Assembly: GCA_035063765.1 (NCBI GenBank)
Contig: JAPSFT010000024.1
Location: 1-57,757, forward strand
DNA from: Deltaproteobacteria bacterium
GTDB lineage: Bacteria > Myxococcota_A > UBA9160 > PR03
Length of the DNA: 57,757 nucleotides
Direction of reading: 5' to 3'
Below the pieces are notes generated by a model. It was given only the letters and a program-made list of their open reading frames with translations, was not told where the DNA came from and did no database searches. Position 1 is the stretch's first letter, and the number at the start of each line of letters is the position of its first letter. Shown one piece after another: positions 3,331 through 41,429 of the stretch. The translations under genes were made by a program, and so were the position numbers.

Positions 3331-4728
3331 ATGACGATCGACCCGCGCCGGCGCCGCCGCTGGGACCCGCTCCGTCCCCCCGTCGCTGCCGGGCTCGCCG
3401 CCATCCTGGCGATCGGGCTCGGCGCGCCGATCGCCGCCCGCGCGGCCGATCTCTCCGACCTGGTCGAGCAGGCGCTCCAGGAGCGCCGGGATCGGGACGA
3501 CGCCCCGGCCGTTCGCCCCGGCCGGGAGGAGGTCGCCCGGAACTGGGACGCCTTCCTGACCGTGGTCATCAAGCGGGCCGGGCACGACGCCCCGCCCGGG
3601 GCGCTCCGCGACCAGCTCCTCGGCGTCCTGATCGAGGAACGGCACCACGTCGTCTCGATGCTGACGGACGCCACCGTGGATGGGCCCGAGCTGATGCGGT
3701 CGGTCTTCGAGAGCTCCTGGGAGCAGCTCTCGCCCCTGCTCCAGCAGGTGGCAGCCACGCTGCCCGAGGACAGCGCGCGGCGCTACGCGCAGTTCATCGA
3801 GGCCGGCGAGCTGATGCGCGCCGCCGAGCGCCTCGGGGTGGCGCGCGACCTGGCCGGCTCCCCGGAGAGCCTCCGCAAGCTCGCCGAGATGCTGCTCGGG
3901 GACGAGGGCCGGGATCCGCTCCACTACGACACCGCCGTCGACCCCGAGCTGCGCCGGATCTTCGGCTTCGGCGAGCCGCTCGCCCCCCCGGCGACGAGCC
4001 CCCTGCTCGGGCCCGCGCCGGCACCGCCCTCCAGCGCGCGCCTCGCACCCTTCTCGCCCCTGGCGGCCCTCGCGGACTGGCTGGTTCCCCAGGCCTGGGC
4101 GGCGCCCCAGCCGGCCGGCGAGCGCTCGCTCCTCGTGGCACGGCTCAACACCTGGATCCCCGGCCGCGAGCAGGAGGTCCGCGAGTACGTCCCGCTCGTG
4201 CACGACCTCCTGCGCCTCACCGTCGACGACGCGCTCGGCCCGGCGGTCGCCGAGGCGGACGCGACCGCGGCCCGGGTGTACCCGGACCTGGTGATCGCGA
4301 CGGCGTGGCAGGAGAGCTGCTGGCGCCAGTTCGTACGCAGCAAGGAGGGCGTGCAGCCGCTCGTCAGCCCGGCCGGCTCGGTGGGTCTCATGCAGATCAA
4401 CGGGCGCGTCTGGCGCGGCCTCTACGATCCCGCCGGCCTCGAAGGCGACATCGGCTACAACGGCCGGGCCGGCGCGGAGATCCTCTGGCACTACCTGCGC
4501 GACTTCGCGCTGCCCGCCGGCGAGCACCTCGGGCCGGGCGGCGCCGACAACCTGGCCCGCGCCACCTACGCCGCCTACAACGGGGGGCCCGGCCACCTGG
4601 CGCGCTACCGCAAGGCGAAGACCTCGGCGCACCTGAAGGAGATCGACCAGGAGTTCTGGCGCAAGTACCAGGGGGTCCGGAAGGGGGAGCAGGCCCCGAT
4701 GCTCTCCTGCTATCCGACCGAACGCTGA
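3331..4728 (+). CDS. Exported lytic transglycosylase (SLT domain)
   Basis: Cleaves the MurNAc-GlcNAc bond of peptidoglycan in the periplasm, for cell-wall turnover or insertion of envelope machines. The protein has 465 residues with a twin-arginine-looking or Arg-rich signal sequence (RRRRRW, then a hydrophobic segment ending ARAAD). A long helical, poorly conserved middle region (about 40-270) precedes the SLT domain: catalytic glutamate about E328 in ATAWQESCWRQF, then GSVGLMQINGRVW and ATYAAYNGGPGHLARY. ATG at 3331 is preceded by GGGGGAGG, a strong ribosome site. The much longer reading frame upstream is a shadow of the helicase gene. The next gene is convergent, 17 bp away. Confidence 0.88.
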   Translation: MTIDPRRRRRWDPLRPPVAAGLAAILAIGLGAPIAARAADLSDLVEQALQERRDRDDAPAVRPGREEVARNWDAFLTVVIKRAGHDAPPGALRDQLLGVLIEERHHVVSMLTDATVDGPELMRSVFESSWEQLSPLLQQVAATLPEDSARRYAQFIEAGELMRAAERLGVARDLAGSPESLRKLAEMLLGDEGRDPLHYDTAVDPELRRIFGFGEPLAPPATSPLLGPAPAPPSSARLAPFSPLAALADWLVPQAWAAPQPAGERSLLVARLNTWIPGREQEVREYVPLVHDLLRLTVDDALGPAVAEADATAARVYPDLVIATAWQESCWRQFVRSKEGVQPLVSPAGSVGLMQINGRVWRGLYDPAGLEGDIGYNGRAGAEILWHYLRDFALPAGEHLGPGGADNLARATYAAYNGGPGHLARYRKAKTSAHLKEIDQEFWRKYQGVRKGEQAPMLSCYPTER

Positions 4729-4745
4729 GCGCCGCGCGAGGCCCG

Positions 4746-5108
4746 TCAGCGCGCTCGCGCGAGCCACGGGAGCGACGCCCAGCCCGCCATCAGGCACAGC
4801 CCCCCGAGCGGCGTGAGCGGGCCCAGCCAGCGCGGCCCGCCGAGGACGAGCAGGTAGATCGACCCCGAGAAGAGGAGCATGCCCGCGGCGAAGAGCCACG
4901 GCGCCGGCCCGAGCGCGCGGCCCCCGCTGCTCCCGAGCAGGGCGAGGGCGAGCAGCGCCACCGCGTGCAGGAGCTGGTAGTGCGCGGCGGTCTGCCAGGA
5001 GGCCACCTGCTCGAGCGGCACGCGCGCGCGCAGGCCGTGGGCCCCGAACGCGCCGGCGGCGACGGCGGTGAGCCCGAAGAGCGCTGCGGCGGCGAGCCAG
5101 CCTCGCAT
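4746..5108 (-). CDS. DUF423 family small membrane protein
   Basis: A 120-residue integral membrane protein with four predicted helices and the DUF423 (YgdD-type) pattern: GLTAVAAGAFGAHGLR near the N-terminus, then SWQTAAHYQLLHAVALL, FSGSIYLLVL and PLTPLGGLCLMAGW. The family is widespread and its function unknown. ATG at 5108 gives the usual family length. It converges with the lytic transglycosylase and diverges from the Rap1a-like gene. Confidence 0.88.
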   Translation of the reverse strand: MRGWLAAAALFGLTAVAAGAFGAHGLRARVPLEQVASWQTAAHYQLLHAVALLALALLGSSGGRALGPAPWLFAAGMLLFSGSIYLLVLGGPRWLGPLTPLGGLCLMAGWASLPWLARAR

Positions 5109-5255
5109 CGCGCGCGAGCATAGCGACGCCGCGCGTGGAGGCTGGGGCCACGGCGTCCGGGCACGCGTGCCGTCGCACCCTGGTGACGAGGGACGGCGCG
5201 CGACGCCCTTGCGGCCCGCTTCGCGAACGCGAGACTCCGGCCCGGAGGTGTATCC

Positions 5256-5693
5256 ATGCGCCATCGGCTCGTGCCTGTCCGCTCGCCCGCGCCCCCGCGC
5301 GCCGTCCTGCTCGGGCTGGTCTTCGTGCTCTTGCCTCTCGCGACGAGCGCCGCGCTCACCGAGGACGACTTCTTCGTCAAGAGCGCCCAGGATCTCGTCG
5401 ACATCTGCAGCTCCCCCGAGTCGGATCCGCTGAACGACGCGGCGGACCACTTCTGCCAGGGCTTCGTGGTGGGTGCCTGGCAGTATCACCAGGCCCAGGC
5501 CGCAGGCCCGAAGGGTGTGCGCCTGGCGTGCCCGCCGGATCCGCCGCCCACGCGCAACGAGGTCGTCACCGGCTTCGTCGCCTGGGCCGGCAAGCACCCG
5601 GAGCACATGGCGGAGCCGGCCGTCGACACCTTGTTCCGCTATCTGGTCGAGCTGGCGCCGTGCCCGGGCGCCGAGAAGGGAGGCGCCCAGTGA
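5256..5693 (+). CDS. Rap1a/Tai-like exported small protein
   Basis: A 145-residue exported protein: signal peptide to about residue 33 (cleavage near TSAALT), then a helical domain with cysteines in DICSS, FCQGFVVGAWQYHQA, LACPP and APCPGA. The spacing of Cys, GxxxG and the end of the domain (PAVDTLFRYLVELAPCP) resembles the Rap1a/Tai fold, the periplasmic immunity proteins of type VI amidase effectors that also occur as orphans. No effector or T6SS gene is nearby, so an immunity role is not supported here. GGAGG precedes the ATG. It overlaps the next gene by GTGA, so the two are probably co-translated. Confidence 0.62.
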   Translation: MRHRLVPVRSPAPPRAVLLGLVFVLLPLATSAALTEDDFFVKSAQDLVDICSSPESDPLNDAADHFCQGFVVGAWQYHQAQAAGPKGVRLACPPDPPPTRNEVVTGFVAWAGKHPEHMAEPAVDTLFRYLVELAPCPGAEKGGAQ

Positions 5694-5929
5694 AGCGCAT
5701 GCTCGTGGCTCCGATCCTCGTCCTCGTGCTCGCCGCCGGCGGGTGCGCAGGCCTCTCCGAGACCGAACAGCGCACGCTGACCGGCGGCGCGGGCGGGGCG
5801 GCCGCCGGCGCCGTGATCGGCGCGCTCGCGGGCAACGCCGGGCTCGGCGCCGCGATCGGTGGCGCGGTCGGTGCCGGTGGCGGCTTCCTCTACGGACGCG
5901 GCGTCGAGGCGGGACAGCGGCGCCAGTAG
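5690..5929 (+). CDS. Glycine-zipper lipoprotein
   Basis: A 79-residue lipoprotein with lipobox AAGGC (Cys19), then a glycine-zipper membrane-inserting hairpin: GGAGGAAAGAVIGALAGNAG and GAAIGGAVGAGGGFLYGRG. Such proteins (SlyB/YMGG-like) sit in the outer membrane and are usually structural or stress-related. GTG at 5690 overlaps the stop of the Rap1a-like gene as GTGA. A strong hairpin terminator follows, so the two genes form a short transcription unit. Confidence 0.8.
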   Translation: MKRMLVAPILVLVLAAGGCAGLSETEQRTLTGGAGGAAAGAVIGALAGNAGLGAAIGGAVGAGGGFLYGRGVEAGQRRQ

Positions 5930-5950
5930 GCCCTCATCGTGCCTTCCCGA

Positions 5951-5987
5951 GACCGCGCCAGGGCCTGCCCTGGCGCGGTCTTCGCTT
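5951..5987 (+). terminator. Rho-independent-type terminator after the glycine-zipper gene
   Basis: Perfect 14-bp inverted repeat (5951-5964 with 5967-5980), in practice a 13-bp GC-rich stem with a CCTG loop, followed by TTCGCTT. It sits 21 bases after the stop codon. The U-tract is short, as in many GC-rich genomes. Confidence 0.75.
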
Positions 5988-6033
5988 GCCCGCGAGATTC
6001 CGCCGCGCACCCCTGGCCCGCGGAGGAGTCCCC

Positions 6034-7287
6034 GTGATCGAGTGGTCCGAATCCCACCAGATGATCCGCGACGCCGTGCGCAAGTTCGTCGAGGCGGAGG
6101 TCGTGCCCCGGATCGACGAGCTCGAGCACGGCGACGCACCGCCCTACGAGGTGCTGCGCAAGCTGTTCCGGACCTTCGGCATGGACGAGCTGGCGCGCCA
6201 GGGCTTCCGGCAGCGGATCGAGCGCGAGCGCCGCGCCGAGGCCGCGCGCGCCGGCGGCGAGACCCCTGCCGAGGAGGAGCGCAAGCCGCGCGCCGAGGGC
6301 GCCGACGCGGCCGCCATGCAGATGATCCCGATCATCGAGCTGTGCCGGTACTGCCCGGGCCTGGTGACCGCGATGGGCGTGTCGGTCGGTCTCACCGCGG
6401 CCGCGATCCTGGGCAAGGGCACCGTGGCGCAGAAGGAGCGCTGGGCGCTGCCGCTCCTCACCCTCGAGAAGATCGGCGCCTGGGCGATCACCGAGCCCGC
6501 CTCGGGCTCCGACGCCTTCGGCGCGATGCGGGCGACGGCCCGCCGCGACGGCGACGGCTACCGGCTCGACGGCAACAAGACCTTCATCACCAACGGTCCC
6601 TACGCCGACACGATCGTGTTCATCTGCAAGCTCGACGAGCCCGGGGTCGAGGCCAAGGACCGCAAGATCCTGCACTTCGTGCTCGATCGCGGCATGCCGG
6701 GCCTCGTGCAGTCGAAGCCGATGCGGAAGATGGGCCTGCACAGCTCGCCGACCGGGGAGCTGTTCCTCTCCGACGTCCAGGCGGGCCCGGAGCGGCTGCT
6801 CGGCGGGAGCGAGGAGCGCGCGGCCTCGGCCGGCAAGAGCGGCGCCAAGGACACCTTCTCGATGGAGCGCTCCGGCGTCGCGGCGATGGCGCTCGGCATC
6901 ATCGAGCGCTGCCTCGAGCTCTCGGTCGACTACGCGAAGACGCGCGTCGCCTGGGGCCAGCCGATCGGCGAGTACCAGCTGATCCAGCTCAAGCTCGCCA
7001 AGATGGAGGTGGCGCGCACCAACGTCCGGAACATGGTCTTCCGCCACATCGAGATGGCGGGCGCCGGCAAGGGCATGTCCTTCGCCGAGGCCTCGGCGAT
7101 GAAGCTCTACGCGGCGCAGGCGGCCGTGGAGGTGGCGCTCGAGGCGGTGCAGCTCTTCGGCGGCAACGGCTACATGGCCGAGTACCGGGTCGAGCAGCTC
7201 GCGCGCGACGCGAAGGTGCTCCAGATCTACGCCGGGACCGACGAGATGCAGGTGCGGGCGATCGCGCGGGCGCTGCTCTCGGCCTGA
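6034..7287 (+). CDS. Acyl-CoA dehydrogenase family flavoprotein
   Basis: FAD enzyme oxidising an acyl-CoA to the enoyl-CoA, passing electrons to ETF. It has 417 residues with clear family blocks: WAITEPASGSDAFGAM, GYRLDGNKTFITNG, YAKTRVAWGQPIGEYQ, AVQLFGGNGYMAEYRVE and LQIYAGTDEMQVRAIAR. The position of the medium-chain catalytic Glu (Y-E-G-T) holds Ala (YAGT); instead Glu278 in FSMERSGVAA lies where isovaleryl- and long-chain-type enzymes keep their base. An unusual charged Arg/Glu-rich insert (about residues 65-95) interrupts the N-terminal helical domain before AAAMQMIPIIELCRYCPG. GTG at 6034 has CGGAGGAG upstream. Substrate cannot be inferred. Confidence 0.9.
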   Translation: MIEWSESHQMIRDAVRKFVEAEVVPRIDELEHGDAPPYEVLRKLFRTFGMDELARQGFRQRIERERRAEAARAGGETPAEEERKPRAEGADAAAMQMIPIIELCRYCPGLVTAMGVSVGLTAAAILGKGTVAQKERWALPLLTLEKIGAWAITEPASGSDAFGAMRATARRDGDGYRLDGNKTFITNGPYADTIVFICKLDEPGVEAKDRKILHFVLDRGMPGLVQSKPMRKMGLHSSPTGELFLSDVQAGPERLLGGSEERAASAGKSGAKDTFSMERSGVAAMALGIIERCLELSVDYAKTRVAWGQPIGEYQLIQLKLAKMEVARTNVRNMVFRHIEMAGAGKGMSFAEASAMKLYAAQAAVEVALEAVQLFGGNGYMAEYRVEQLARDAKVLQIYAGTDEMQVRAIARALLSA

Positions 7288-17723: not shown

Positions 17724-18635
17724 CTACCAGCTCCCCGAGGCGCCGCCGCCCCCGAAGCCGCCGCCGCCGCCGCCCCCGAAGCCGCCGCCGCCCCCGAAGC
17801 CGCCGCCGTCGCCGAAGCCCCCCCCGCCGCCGGAGCCGCCGCCCCAGCCGCCGCCCGGGACGAAGATGGGCCCGCCCCGGCGCCGGCCCCGGCCTCCGCC
17901 GAGCCCGCCCGGCCCGCCGAGCCCGAGCACGAAGGCGGCCCCGAAGGCCAGGAGCGCCCAGCCGAGGCTCGCCAGCAGGAGCCACGTGACCGCCCCGCCG
18001 ATGCCGCCGCCGACCAGCGACGCGAGCGGCCGCCTGCGCCGGAGCGGGGCTGCGAGCACGGTCCCGAGCAAGGCGGCAAACCCCACCGCGGCGAGCGGGT
18101 CGGTGTGCGGGGTGCGCTCGCGCGCAGGCGGGCGCTCCACCACCTCGCCGCGGGCCGCCCGCATCAGGGCGCCCACCCCCGCCTCGATCCCGCCCGCGAA
18201 GTCGCCCGTCCGGAAGTGCGGGAACATGACGTCCTCGAGCACACGCTTGGCGATCGCGTCGGGGACCACGCCTTCGAGCCCGTAGCCCACCTCGATGCGC
18301 GCGCGCCGGTCCTTCGGCGCCACGACGACGAGGATCCCGTTGTCGGCGCCGGCCTGGCCGAGCCGCCAGCGTTCGGCGACGCGCAGCGCGAAGGGCTCGA
18401 TCGCCTCGCCCTCGAGCGAGGGCACCGTGAGCACCACGATCTGGTGCGTGGTCTCGGCCTCGAAGGCGGCGAGCTGCGCGTCGAGCCGCGCCGCGGCGGC
18501 GGGGTCGAGCACGCCCGCGAGGTCCTCGACCCGCCCGCGCAGCGGAGGGACCGGCAGCTCGGCTCGGGCAGCACCCGCGACCGCGAGGACGACCAGCGCG
18601 GCGAGCGCGATCCCGCGCGCCGGGTGCTGGATCAG
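17724..18635 (-). CDS. YgcG-like TPM-domain protein with Gly-rich tail, probable CTG start
   Basis: A 303-residue exported membrane protein. Signal peptide IALAALVVLAVAGAARA, then the TPM domain (VEDLAGVLDPAAAARLDAQL, HQIVVLTVPSLEG, WRLGQAGADNGILVVVAPKD, RIEVGYGLEGVVPDAIA), two hydrophobic segments and a poly-Gly/Phe tail ending GASGSW, typical of the family. No ATG, GTG or TTG exists in frame before or inside the signal peptide. CTG at 18635 overlaps the lemA stop as CTGA and has a perfect GGAGGTGA ribosome site 5 bases upstream, so I take it as the start. The poly-Gly tail is encoded by GC-rich simple-sequence DNA. Confidence 0.88.
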   Translation of the reverse strand: MIQHPARGIALAALVVLAVAGAARAELPVPPLRGRVEDLAGVLDPAAAARLDAQLAAFEAETTHQIVVLTVPSLEGEAIEPFALRVAERWRLGQAGADNGILVVVAPKDRRARIEVGYGLEGVVPDAIAKRVLEDVMFPHFRTGDFAGGIEAGVGALMRAARGEVVERPPARERTPHTDPLAAVGFAALLGTVLAAPLRRRRPLASLVGGGIGGAVTWLLLASLGWALLAFGAAFVLGLGGPGGLGGGRGRRRGGPIFVPGGGWGGGSGGGGGFGDGGGFGGGGGFGGGGGGGFGGGGASGSW

Positions 18636-37279: not shown

Positions 37280-38851
<1,572 letters not shown>

Positions 38852-39088: not shown

Positions 39089-39235
39089 GTGCGAGCCGAT
39101 CGGGCTCGTGCTCGGATCGCGGAGGGCGTGATCGCGGCGGGCGGGGTCGCGGCGGTCGGGGTCGTGGCGGTCTGGGTCGTGGCGGTGGTGATCGCGGTGG
39201 TCGGGGTCGCGGCGGTCGGGGAGGGACGGCGATGA
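39089..39235 (+). CDS. Possible 48-residue membrane peptide made from a tandem repeat
   Basis: An open frame from GTG 39089 ending in TGA 39233-39235, which overlaps the next gene's ATG as ATGA, the junction form used repeatedly here. The product is basic at the start (RADRARARIAEG), then one strongly hydrophobic stretch of Val/Ala pentads (GVAAVGVVAVWVVAVVIAVV), then EGRR. That is a perfect single-span membrane peptide, encoded by the 15-bp repeat at 39136-39225. There is no clear ribosome site, and a repeat of this composition could give such a frame by chance. Low confidence. Confidence 0.3.
   Translation: MRADRARARIAEGVIAAGGVAAVGVVAVWVVAVVIAVVGVAAVGEGRR
39136..39225. repeat. 15-bp tandem repeat, about six imperfect units
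   Basis: Six consecutive 15-base units based on GGCGGTCGGGGTCGT, at 39136, 39151, 39166, 39181, 39196 and 39211, in perfect register, the last degenerating into the ribosome site. It lies just upstream of the heme propeller gene (ATG 39232). It could be a translated linker, a regulatory array or a length-variable element. Confidence 0.85.
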
Positions 39236-41031
39236 GCACGCTCGCGAGACGCTGCGGGCTGGCGGTCCTCGCACTCGGGGCAGCGGTCCCGGGCCTGGCG
39301 TCCGCTGCCGGGCTCGACGGGCGCCTCCACGGTCCCGACGGCGCGCCGATCGTCGGGGCACGCGTGACGGCGGAACGCGGCGCGCCGGCGCGCGGCACGA
39401 CCGTGTTCTCGGACGCGGACGGGCGCTTCCGGGTGGAGGATCTCGCGCCGGGCGACTGGCAGCTGCGCGTGCGCCGCATCGGCTGGCGCGACCTGGGCGC
39501 CCGGGTCAGCGCCCCGAGCGCCGGGCTCGCCCTCGCCCTCGAGCCCGAGACCGATCCCGCCGCGCTGGCCGAGCAGCTTCCGGCCAACCGCTGGTTCGCG
39601 CTCTTCCTCGAGCAGATCGAGACGCCCTGGCAGCGCGAGCAGTTCGTGCGCCAGTGCACCTACTGTCACCAGCAGGGCAGCGCGGCCACGCGCGTGCCGC
39701 GCGAGGACTGGCAGTGGGAGAAGGTGCTCTCGCTGATGGCGCGCCTCGGCGGCGGGCTCTCGCCGGAGGTGCGCGCGCAGGTGCCGGGCTGGTTCCGCGC
39801 CGCCTACGAGCCGTCCCACGCGGTCCCGCGCCTGACCGCCGGGATGGGCACGGCGGCCTTCGCCCCGCCGCCGCCCGAGGAGGTGCGGCGCGCGGTGATC
39901 GACGAGTGGGTGCTCGGCGGCCGCGCCTCGATGCAGCACGATCTGACGGTCCACCCGAGCGGACACGTCTACTCCGTCGACATGATGCAGGACACGCTGT
40001 TCCGGCTCGATCCCGAGAGCGGCGCGACCGAGAGCTTTCCGATTCCCGACGACGGGCTCCCGCTCGGCGGGGTCTTCGCCACCAGCGGCGCGCCGCTGGT
40101 TCCGAACGCGAATGCGCACGTCGGGCCGCACTCGCTGCAGGTGGCGCCCGACGGCTCGCTCTGGGTCACGCTGGCGCTCGGCAACCGCCTCGGCCGCTTC
40201 GACCCGGCGACCGGGCAGTGGAAGCTCTACGCGATGAGCGAGGGCTACTACCCTCATACGCTGCGCATCGACGGCGGCGGGCGCATCTGGTTCACGATCG
40301 CCGGCTCGAACCACGTGGCGCGCTTCGATCCGGCGCAGGGGCGCTTCGACACGATCCGCCTGCCGGCCCAGGGCCTCCAGCAGGAGGTGATGCTGCGGCT
40401 CCTGCCCTTCGCGATGTGGCTCTCCCGGTACGTCGACCTGCCGCTCGAGGCCGGCGAGGGCGTCGCGAACATGCCGATCCCCTACGGCATCGACATCGCG
40501 CCGGACGGCGACGTCTGGTTCAGCCAGCTCAATGCCCACCGGATCGGGCGCGTCGATCCCGGGACGCTCGCGGTCGAGCTGGTCGACACGCCGTTCACGG
40601 CCCCGCGCCGGCTGCGCTTCGACTCGCAGGGGCGCTTGTGGATCCCGGGCTTCTCGTCCGGGGTCGTGTCCCGTTTCGATCCGGCGACGCGCGCCTTCGA
40701 GAGCTGGGAGATCCCGGTCGAGCCGAAGGGCGCCGACACGCCGTACGCCCTGCACGTGGATCGCCGCACCGACGTGGTGTGGATCTGCGGCACCAACAGC
40801 GACACCCTGATCCGCTTCGACCCCGCCCGGGAGTCGTTCCTCGTCTACCCGCTGCCGACCCGCGTCACCTACACGCGTGAGCTCGACTTCGACGAGCAGG
40901 GCCGCGTCTGGACCTCGAACTCGAATACGCCCACCTGGCAGATCGAGCGGGGCGAGCCCCGTGTGATCCGCCTCGATCCCCGGCTCGGCGAGGCGCCCCG
41001 GCAGGCGAGCGCGCGGGCGGGCCTCCCTTGA
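39232..41031 (+). CDS. Exported heme-bearing streptogramin-lyase-like (Vgb) beta-propeller protein
   Basis: A 599-residue exported protein with signal peptide LAVLALGAAVPGLASA. Domain order: a carboxypeptidase-regulatory/Ig-like domain (about 25-105; GLDGRLHGPDGAPIVGARVT, FRVEDLAPGDWQLRVRRIGW); a short cytochrome c domain with one heme site C142-T-Y-C-H146 and MARLGGG after it; then a six- or seven-bladed propeller resembling virginiamycin B lyase (SLWVTLALGNRLGRFDPATG, GRIWFTIAGSNHVARFDPAQ, GDVWFSQLNAHRIGRVDP, GRLWIPGFSSGVVSRFDPAT). ATG at 39232 has GGGGAGGG upstream. The next gene, a cytochrome c, is coupled by TTGA. Probably a periplasmic redox or lyase protein; substrate unknown. Confidence 0.82.
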   Translation: MSTLARRCGLAVLALGAAVPGLASAAGLDGRLHGPDGAPIVGARVTAERGAPARGTTVFSDADGRFRVEDLAPGDWQLRVRRIGWRDLGARVSAPSAGLALALEPETDPAALAEQLPANRWFALFLEQIETPWQREQFVRQCTYCHQQGSAATRVPREDWQWEKVLSLMARLGGGLSPEVRAQVPGWFRAAYEPSHAVPRLTAGMGTAAFAPPPPEEVRRAVIDEWVLGGRASMQHDLTVHPSGHVYSVDMMQDTLFRLDPESGATESFPIPDDGLPLGGVFATSGAPLVPNANAHVGPHSLQVAPDGSLWVTLALGNRLGRFDPATGQWKLYAMSEGYYPHTLRIDGGGRIWFTIAGSNHVARFDPAQGRFDTIRLPAQGLQQEVMLRLLPFAMWLSRYVDLPLEAGEGVANMPIPYGIDIAPDGDVWFSQLNAHRIGRVDPGTLAVELVDTPFTAPRRLRFDSQGRLWIPGFSSGVVSRFDPATRAFESWEIPVEPKGADTPYALHVDRRTDVVWICGTNSDTLIRFDPARESFLVYPLPTRVTYTRELDFDEQGRVWTSNSNTPTWQIERGEPRVIRLDPRLGEAPRQASARAGLP

Positions 41032-41429
41032 GGGCGCGAGCGGCGGCGCGGGCCGCGGGCCTGCTCCTCGTGCTCGGCGCGCCGGCGGCCGGCGAGGCGG
41101 TGGAGGCGGGTCCTGCCGCGGCGCTTCCGGGCCAGGCCCTCTACGCCGAGCACTGCGCCCTCTGCCACGGCGTGGAGGGGGGTGGCGACGGGCCGGCGGG
41201 GCTCCCGCTCGTGCCGATGCCGCGGGACTTCCGCGTCGGTCGCTTCAAGTTCGACGCGGACGGGGACGGCCGCACCGGCACGGATCGCGACCTCTTCCTG
41301 GTGATCCGCGACGGAGCCGGCGCCGTCGGCGGGAATCCCGTGATGGCGCCCTGGGGTCAGCTCGGCGAGCTGCGCATCCACGAGCTCGTCGCCTACGTCC
41401 GCAGCCTCGAGCGACACCAGGCGCCGTAG
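41028..41429 (+). CDS. Exported c-type cytochrome
   Basis: A 133-residue monoheme cytochrome c. The TTG at 41028 overlaps the preceding stop (TTGA). Signal peptide GLLLVLGAPAAGEA, heme site HCALCHGVEGGGDGPAGLPL (Cys43, Cys46, His47), then PMPRDFRVGRFKF and a likely methionine ligand in GNPVMAPWGQL, ending in the usual helix LVAYVRSLE. Also contains a calcium-loop-like DADGDGRTG. Almost certainly the electron partner of the heme propeller protein in the same unit. Confidence 0.88.
   Translation: MRARAAARAAGLLLVLGAPAAGEAVEAGPAAALPGQALYAEHCALCHGVEGGGDGPAGLPLVPMPRDFRVGRFKFDADGDGRTGTDRDLFLVIRDGAGAVGGNPVMAPWGQLGELRIHELVAYVRSLERHQAP

Follow-up and report, generated by a model that had tools for sequence, protein, structure and literature searches.

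A conserved family of Vgb-type propeller proteins with a predicted heme c site in Myxococcota and its candidate redox partners

The stretch of DNA analysed here (the window; 57,757 nucleotides, contig JAPSFT010000024.1 of a Deltaproteobacteria bacterium) encodes an apparently exported protein in which a putative heme c domain is joined to a propeller of the type of virginiamycin B lyase (Vgb; the fusion is called heme-Vgb below). This protein represents a family that is uncharacterised, well conserved and accompanied by a clear set of partners. We put the chances at about even that the protein is in its own right a catabolic enzyme of the periplasm that carries out a redox reaction and releases the electrons through its own heme. 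No description of a heme-Vgb or Vgb-quinoprotein system was found in the open-access literature searched.

Domain organisation of the heme-propeller protein

The features of the gene, its downstream neighbour and the sulfatase gene upstream are as follows.

37280-38851, plus strand: type I sulfatase (CTAGR motif), PF00884 at 155.9 bits
39232-41031, plus strand: heme-c / Vgb-type propeller fusion protein, 599 aa with stop; ATG at 39232, stop at 41029-41031
39232-39309, plus strand: putative signal peptide, residues 1-26; hydrophobic N-terminus with an AxA-type end (...GLASAA/GL), by inspection
39313-39492, plus strand: CarboxypepD_reg domain, residues 28-87; PF13620, 49.2 bits against a cut-off of 32.3
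39541-39879, plus strand: predicted all-helical heme-c domain, residues 104-216; modelled separately, pLDDT 90.3
39655-39669, plus strand: CTYCH, predicted site of covalent heme attachment (C142, C145, H146); invariant in 60 aligned homologues
39736-39738, plus strand: M169, 23 residues past the heme His, candidate axial ligand; invariant in the alignment
39874-40986, plus strand: seven-bladed Vgb-type propeller, residues ~215-585; PF24684 and structural match to 2qc5
39937-40878, plus strand: inner-strand polar residues H236-D237, H300, H342, Y418, R459-R460, Y505 and R549; invariant or nearly so, one set per blade
41028-41429, plus strand: class I monoheme cytochrome c; TTG start, TTGA overlap with the stop of the heme-Vgb gene

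The open reading frame combines a signal peptide, a carboxypeptidase-regulatory domain, a CxxCH motif and a Vgb propeller, as the original prediction had it. Export to the periplasm is predicted from the signal peptide, which was read by eye, and heme would be attached at the CTYCH motif. The model of the whole product has a pLDDT of 88.6 and a pTM of 0.89, and its residues ~215-584 match 2qc5 with a Z of 35.1 and a deviation of 1.6 A over 295 of 298 residues; the next-best unrelated propeller, at Z 28.8, falls well under the Vgb value of 35. Pfam assigns the propeller to PF24684 (Vgb_lyase; 80.4 bits, cut-off 50), and PF08450 (SGL) also matches this region. The gene is single copy in its own genome. 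A G+C-rich tandem repeat with a 15-base unit (TCGCGGCGGTCGGGG) is present seven times, with 82% matches, at 39117-39221, immediately 5' of the ATG at 39232.

The heme domain itself gave little by comparison with known folds. Against Pfam Cytochrome_CBB3 it scored 13.5 bits, under the cut-off of 27, its best match by sequence among solved chains was not significant (E 0.094) and Foldseek returned no usable match in the PDB. In VIA the best cytochrome-bearing row was a chain of sulfite dehydrogenase (2blf_B) with a Z of 3.0, which is too weak for use. The heme site is not a chance occurrence, since CxxCH, W162 and M169 are invariant in 60/60 homologues despite the sub-cut-off Pfam score.

Conserved residues in the heme domain and the propeller

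Conservation was read from an alignment of 60 proteins, mostly from Myxococcota, two of them from Alpha- and Gammaproteobacteria, where identity falls to ~26%. C142, C145, H146, W162 and M169 never vary in this alignment, W162 lying at +16 and M169 at +23 relative to the heme His, and M169 may perhaps serve as an axial ligand of the heme. Equally invariant are D237, H300, H342, Y418, R459, R460, Y505 and R549, while H236 is replaced by R in both proteobacterial sequences. When strand positions are taken from the model, every conserved polar set opens the innermost strand of one blade, and this ring of residues is, as judged from sequence, a conserved propeller pocket. Vgb-like enzymes have their active sites at the starts of the innermost strands, and in carotenoid oxygenase and nitrous oxide reductase metals are held by inner-strand histidines (PMC8916777). 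Both the CTYCH site and the propeller pocket, on whose conservation the original prediction turned, thus proved to be constant across all 60 sequences.

Distribution of the family

Matches at an E-value of 0.001 or better were found in 38 of 60 related genomes, and 35 of these 38, in which the E-value was below 1e-100, were taken to hold clear family members and are called carriers below. With the family alignment as query, 58 of the 377 genomes sampled from the phylum gave a match at 1e-60 or better. Relatives with names come from uncultured Myxococcota and 'Deltaproteobacteria'.

Shorter heme-Vgb fusions are encoded on plasmids of Microvirga ossetica and Catenovulum adriaticum (L123, L124). 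They share with the window protein the spacing of Trp at His+16 and Met at His+23 as well as D237, H300, H342, Y418, R459, R460, Y505 and R549, but lack the CarboxypepD_reg domain and carry R instead of H236. The C. adriaticum protein (plasmid pCadTS8_2), of which that of M. ossetica is a homologue, is annotated only as 'cytochrome C', and no PQQ dehydrogenase was seen alongside this annotated protein. In G003, a genome from the same family without a close orthologue, three divergent paralogues (L127, L128, L129) combine CarboxypepD, CxxCH and propeller. The view that Vgb-type propellers are without heme, from which the original prediction had started, does not hold in the face of these paralogues and of the plasmid fusions with the same spacing. 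Two heme-free relatives of the 'lyase' type, from Methylocystis and Cupriavidus, have nearly the same pocket, and the chemistry of the pocket therefore need not use heme.

Partner genes

The strongest partner of heme-Vgb is a small lipoprotein of ~180 residues, termed PPC-like from its best Pfam match (PPC, E 0.003, below the cut-off). It is the immediate neighbour of heme-Vgb in 31 of 63 loci. Genome-wide it was present in 31/35 carriers as against 1/25 non-carriers (60 genomes; Fisher 1e-11) and at genus level in 21/23 carrier genera as against 0/15 others, with the proviso that p-values of this kind overstate independence because the genomes are related. In three genera where sister genomes differ, either both the lipoprotein and heme-Vgb are there or neither is. 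The co-occurrence extends to genomes in which the two genes lie far apart, including that of the window, where the sole copy detected (L086 7834-8385; G000:C7, near 17854-18354) is unlinked to heme-Vgb and has two-component and nitrate-reductase-like genes within a few kilobases of it. Such association data identify a functional unit; they do not give the reaction itself.

The gene downstream of heme-Vgb in the window encodes a small class I cytochrome c with a CALCH motif at 41154-41168 (PF13442, 37.1 bits against a cut-off of 27; PF00034, 32.2 bits against 21.3). Its predicted TTGA overlap was confirmed, with the TTG beginning at 41028 and the TGA stop of heme-Vgb at 41029-41031. In the closest clade an orthologue of this cytochrome lies directly downstream of heme-Vgb, usually with overlapping stop and start. 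A cytochrome c is near heme-Vgb in 8/63 loci and as a neighbour it is limited to one clade plus a single further locus (L062).

A PQQ-type dehydrogenase is encoded within three genes of heme-Vgb in 14 of the 63 loci. These enzymes form two subgroups and belong to the glucose/quinate family, with a match to TIGR03074 of 681 bits that lies below the cut-off of that family. In one genome (G030) there are two paralogues of heme-Vgb and a separate dehydrogenase beside each of them, and at two loci (L045, L046) the genes for dehydrogenase, lipoprotein, heme-Vgb and cytochrome c follow one another in this order with overlapping ends. The co-encoding of a quinoprotein, a heme-bearing partner and a small cytochrome c at these two loci resembles quinohemoprotein dehydrogenase systems; the difference is that here the heme is on the Vgb-type propeller protein rather than on the dehydrogenase and that the linkage is optional. 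No PQQ dehydrogenase adjoins the window copy, and the three from its genome that were compared are unlinked and fall outside both neighbour subgroups in the tree (weak support). PqqC, of PQQ synthesis, was not detected over the cut-off in 13 of the 35 carriers and showed no association with heme-Vgb (p = 0.19). Coupling to a PQQ enzyme cannot therefore be general, and obligate PQQ dependence was rejected on the same count. In three genomes a PQQ-type dehydrogenase stands beside heme-Vgb with PqqC absent over the cut-off (G010 at L057, G021 at L069, G030 at L062 and L068); these dehydrogenases may use scavenged PQQ or stay empty.

At L105-L110, which hold distant homologues, heme-Vgb is packed into a tight operon between genes for a short-chain dehydrogenase/reductase (SDR) and an MFS-like transporter, the ends of the genes overlapping and the names being taken from sequence reading. 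This is as expected of a catabolic enzyme for a transported small molecule. No recurrent kinase or chemoreceptor gene was found among the neighbour families shared by heme-Vgb loci.

Of the two neighbours to which the original prediction gave a role, the cytochrome c is conserved within its own clade and the sulfatase is not a conserved neighbour in close relatives. The lipoprotein and the quinoprotein dehydrogenases had been missed, since neither adjoins the window copy.

Possible functions

In the catabolic redox enzyme that we favour, a small molecule would be bound in the propeller pocket and either be transformed there with loss of electrons or be delivered as the product of a partner dehydrogenase. 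The monoheme cytochrome c encoded alongside would receive the electrons from the heme at C142/C145/H146 and hand them to the respiratory chain. The PPC-like lipoprotein, as the constant partner, could act as an anchor or a substrate-handling subunit, and the PQQ-type dehydrogenases would be frequent and exchangeable co-workers. We infer the redox nature of the pocket reaction, the direction of electron flow and the roles of the partners. As originally predicted, an enzyme with a redox reaction in the periplasm remains the best reading, and a plausible one, in view of the heme site, the pocket and the links to cytochrome and PQQ enzymes. A wider and more tentative proposal, to which we give somewhat less than an even chance, is that these proteins form a family of oxidoreductases in which a Vgb-type propeller is coupled to heme, with oxidation in the pocket, a built-in heme c, a dedicated cytochrome c, a constant lipoprotein and interchangeable quinoproteins. 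Such a class of redox enzymes would be built on a fold that is known from lyases otherwise.

The heme might instead take electrons from a heme-less PQQ dehydrogenase, and the propeller would then only dock or act on what that enzyme has oxidised, as a lactonase or lyase might. The dehydrogenases within three genes at 14/63 loci, among them both paralogous loci of G030, speak for such an arrangement. Most loci, that of the window included, nevertheless have no PQQ dehydrogenase nearby, those of the window genome lie elsewhere and outside both neighbour subgroups (with weak support), 13/35 carriers are without PqqC over the cut-off, and docking alone does not account for an invariant pocket; we regard this explanation as fairly unlikely. 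A sensor or ligand-binding protein of the periplasm, reporting redox state or ligand through the lipoprotein, would make sense of the constancy of that partner, and CarboxypepD_reg and propeller domains occur in surface receptors and sensors too. Against this stand the neighbour families shared between loci, in which neither kinases nor chemoreceptors recur, the metabolic look of the operons and the resemblance of the pocket residues to an enzyme site, and a sensing role seems improbable.

The remaining alternatives turn on the comparison with Vgb itself (2qc5, 2z2n-2z2p; PF24684), which has the same seven blades and matches the window propeller over the whole fold with a Z of 35 and a deviation of 1.6-1.7 A. 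Vgb consists of a single domain of ~300 residues, in which blades 6-7 hold the substrate and Mg (PMC8916777). The window protein differs in being exported, in the added CarboxypepD_reg and heme domains and, in the collinear register, in having its conserved histidines in blades 1-3. The fold and Pfam family that both have in common are what would suggest an ordinary streptogramin B resistance lyase; with 46.1 and 42.5 bits against cut-offs of 600 for NCBIfam VgbA and VgbB, export, a heme site and a different pocket, this is very improbable indeed. A Vgb-type lyase or hydrolase of another kind, in which a bond is eliminated or hydrolysed without net electron transfer and the heme is structural or regulatory, has more in its favour, namely the nearly identical pocket of the heme-free relatives and a register rotated by three blades that places H300, H342 and Y418 on H228, H270 and Y18 of Vgb. 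In 53/62 sequences it is this rotated register that gets the highest score. The blades are alike enough for the register to be rotated. In the end-to-end structural register, on the other hand, the catalytic H270 of Vgb falls at ~R549, and the preference for the rotation is absent in outgroup sequences and is not the best among all 5040 blade orders. A circular permutation relative to Vgb is hinted at by local HMMER matches and, within the window clade, by the rotation test, but is not upheld in the outgroups or across all blade orders. A heme site that is invariant in 60/60 sequences is also hard to see as decoration, and we consider a lyase or hydrolase unlikely. CylK, the alkylating enzyme of cylindrocyclophane synthesis, which works at the interface of its propeller and added domain, is likewise a two-domain catalytic protein with an N-terminal domain added over a Vgb-like propeller, but in CylK this domain is a calcium beta-roll without heme and the reaction is an aromatic alkylation (PMC8916777).

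If the favoured reading as a redox enzyme is correct, a propeller family with the annotation 'lyase' would gain electron transfer as a function. The database names 'virginiamycin B lyase' and 'cytochrome C' would then be corrected in a widespread family, and uncultured Myxococcota, whose biochemistry is little known, would offer a concrete, testable module of lipoprotein, heme propeller, cytochrome c and quinoprotein.

The upstream sulfatase and other distant contexts

The sulfatase at 37280-38851, which had been thought to supply a desulfated substrate, adjoins heme-Vgb in no close relative, and the link was rejected for these. It probably lies outside the heme-Vgb module. One distant locus (L102) has, at 4572-6128, a sulfatase that belongs to the subfamily of the one in the window and is 62% identical to it, two genes upstream of a heme-Vgb homologue of 35% identity; this proximity may be due to chance, given the 9-41 sulfatases per genome counted in eight genomes. 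At L101-L104 the distant heme-Vgb genes are found beside NAD-epimerase-like SDR genes, together with a TPP-type enzyme and SDRs. With the operons of L105-L110, an NAD-epimerase-like SDR stands beside heme-Vgb in two differing contexts.
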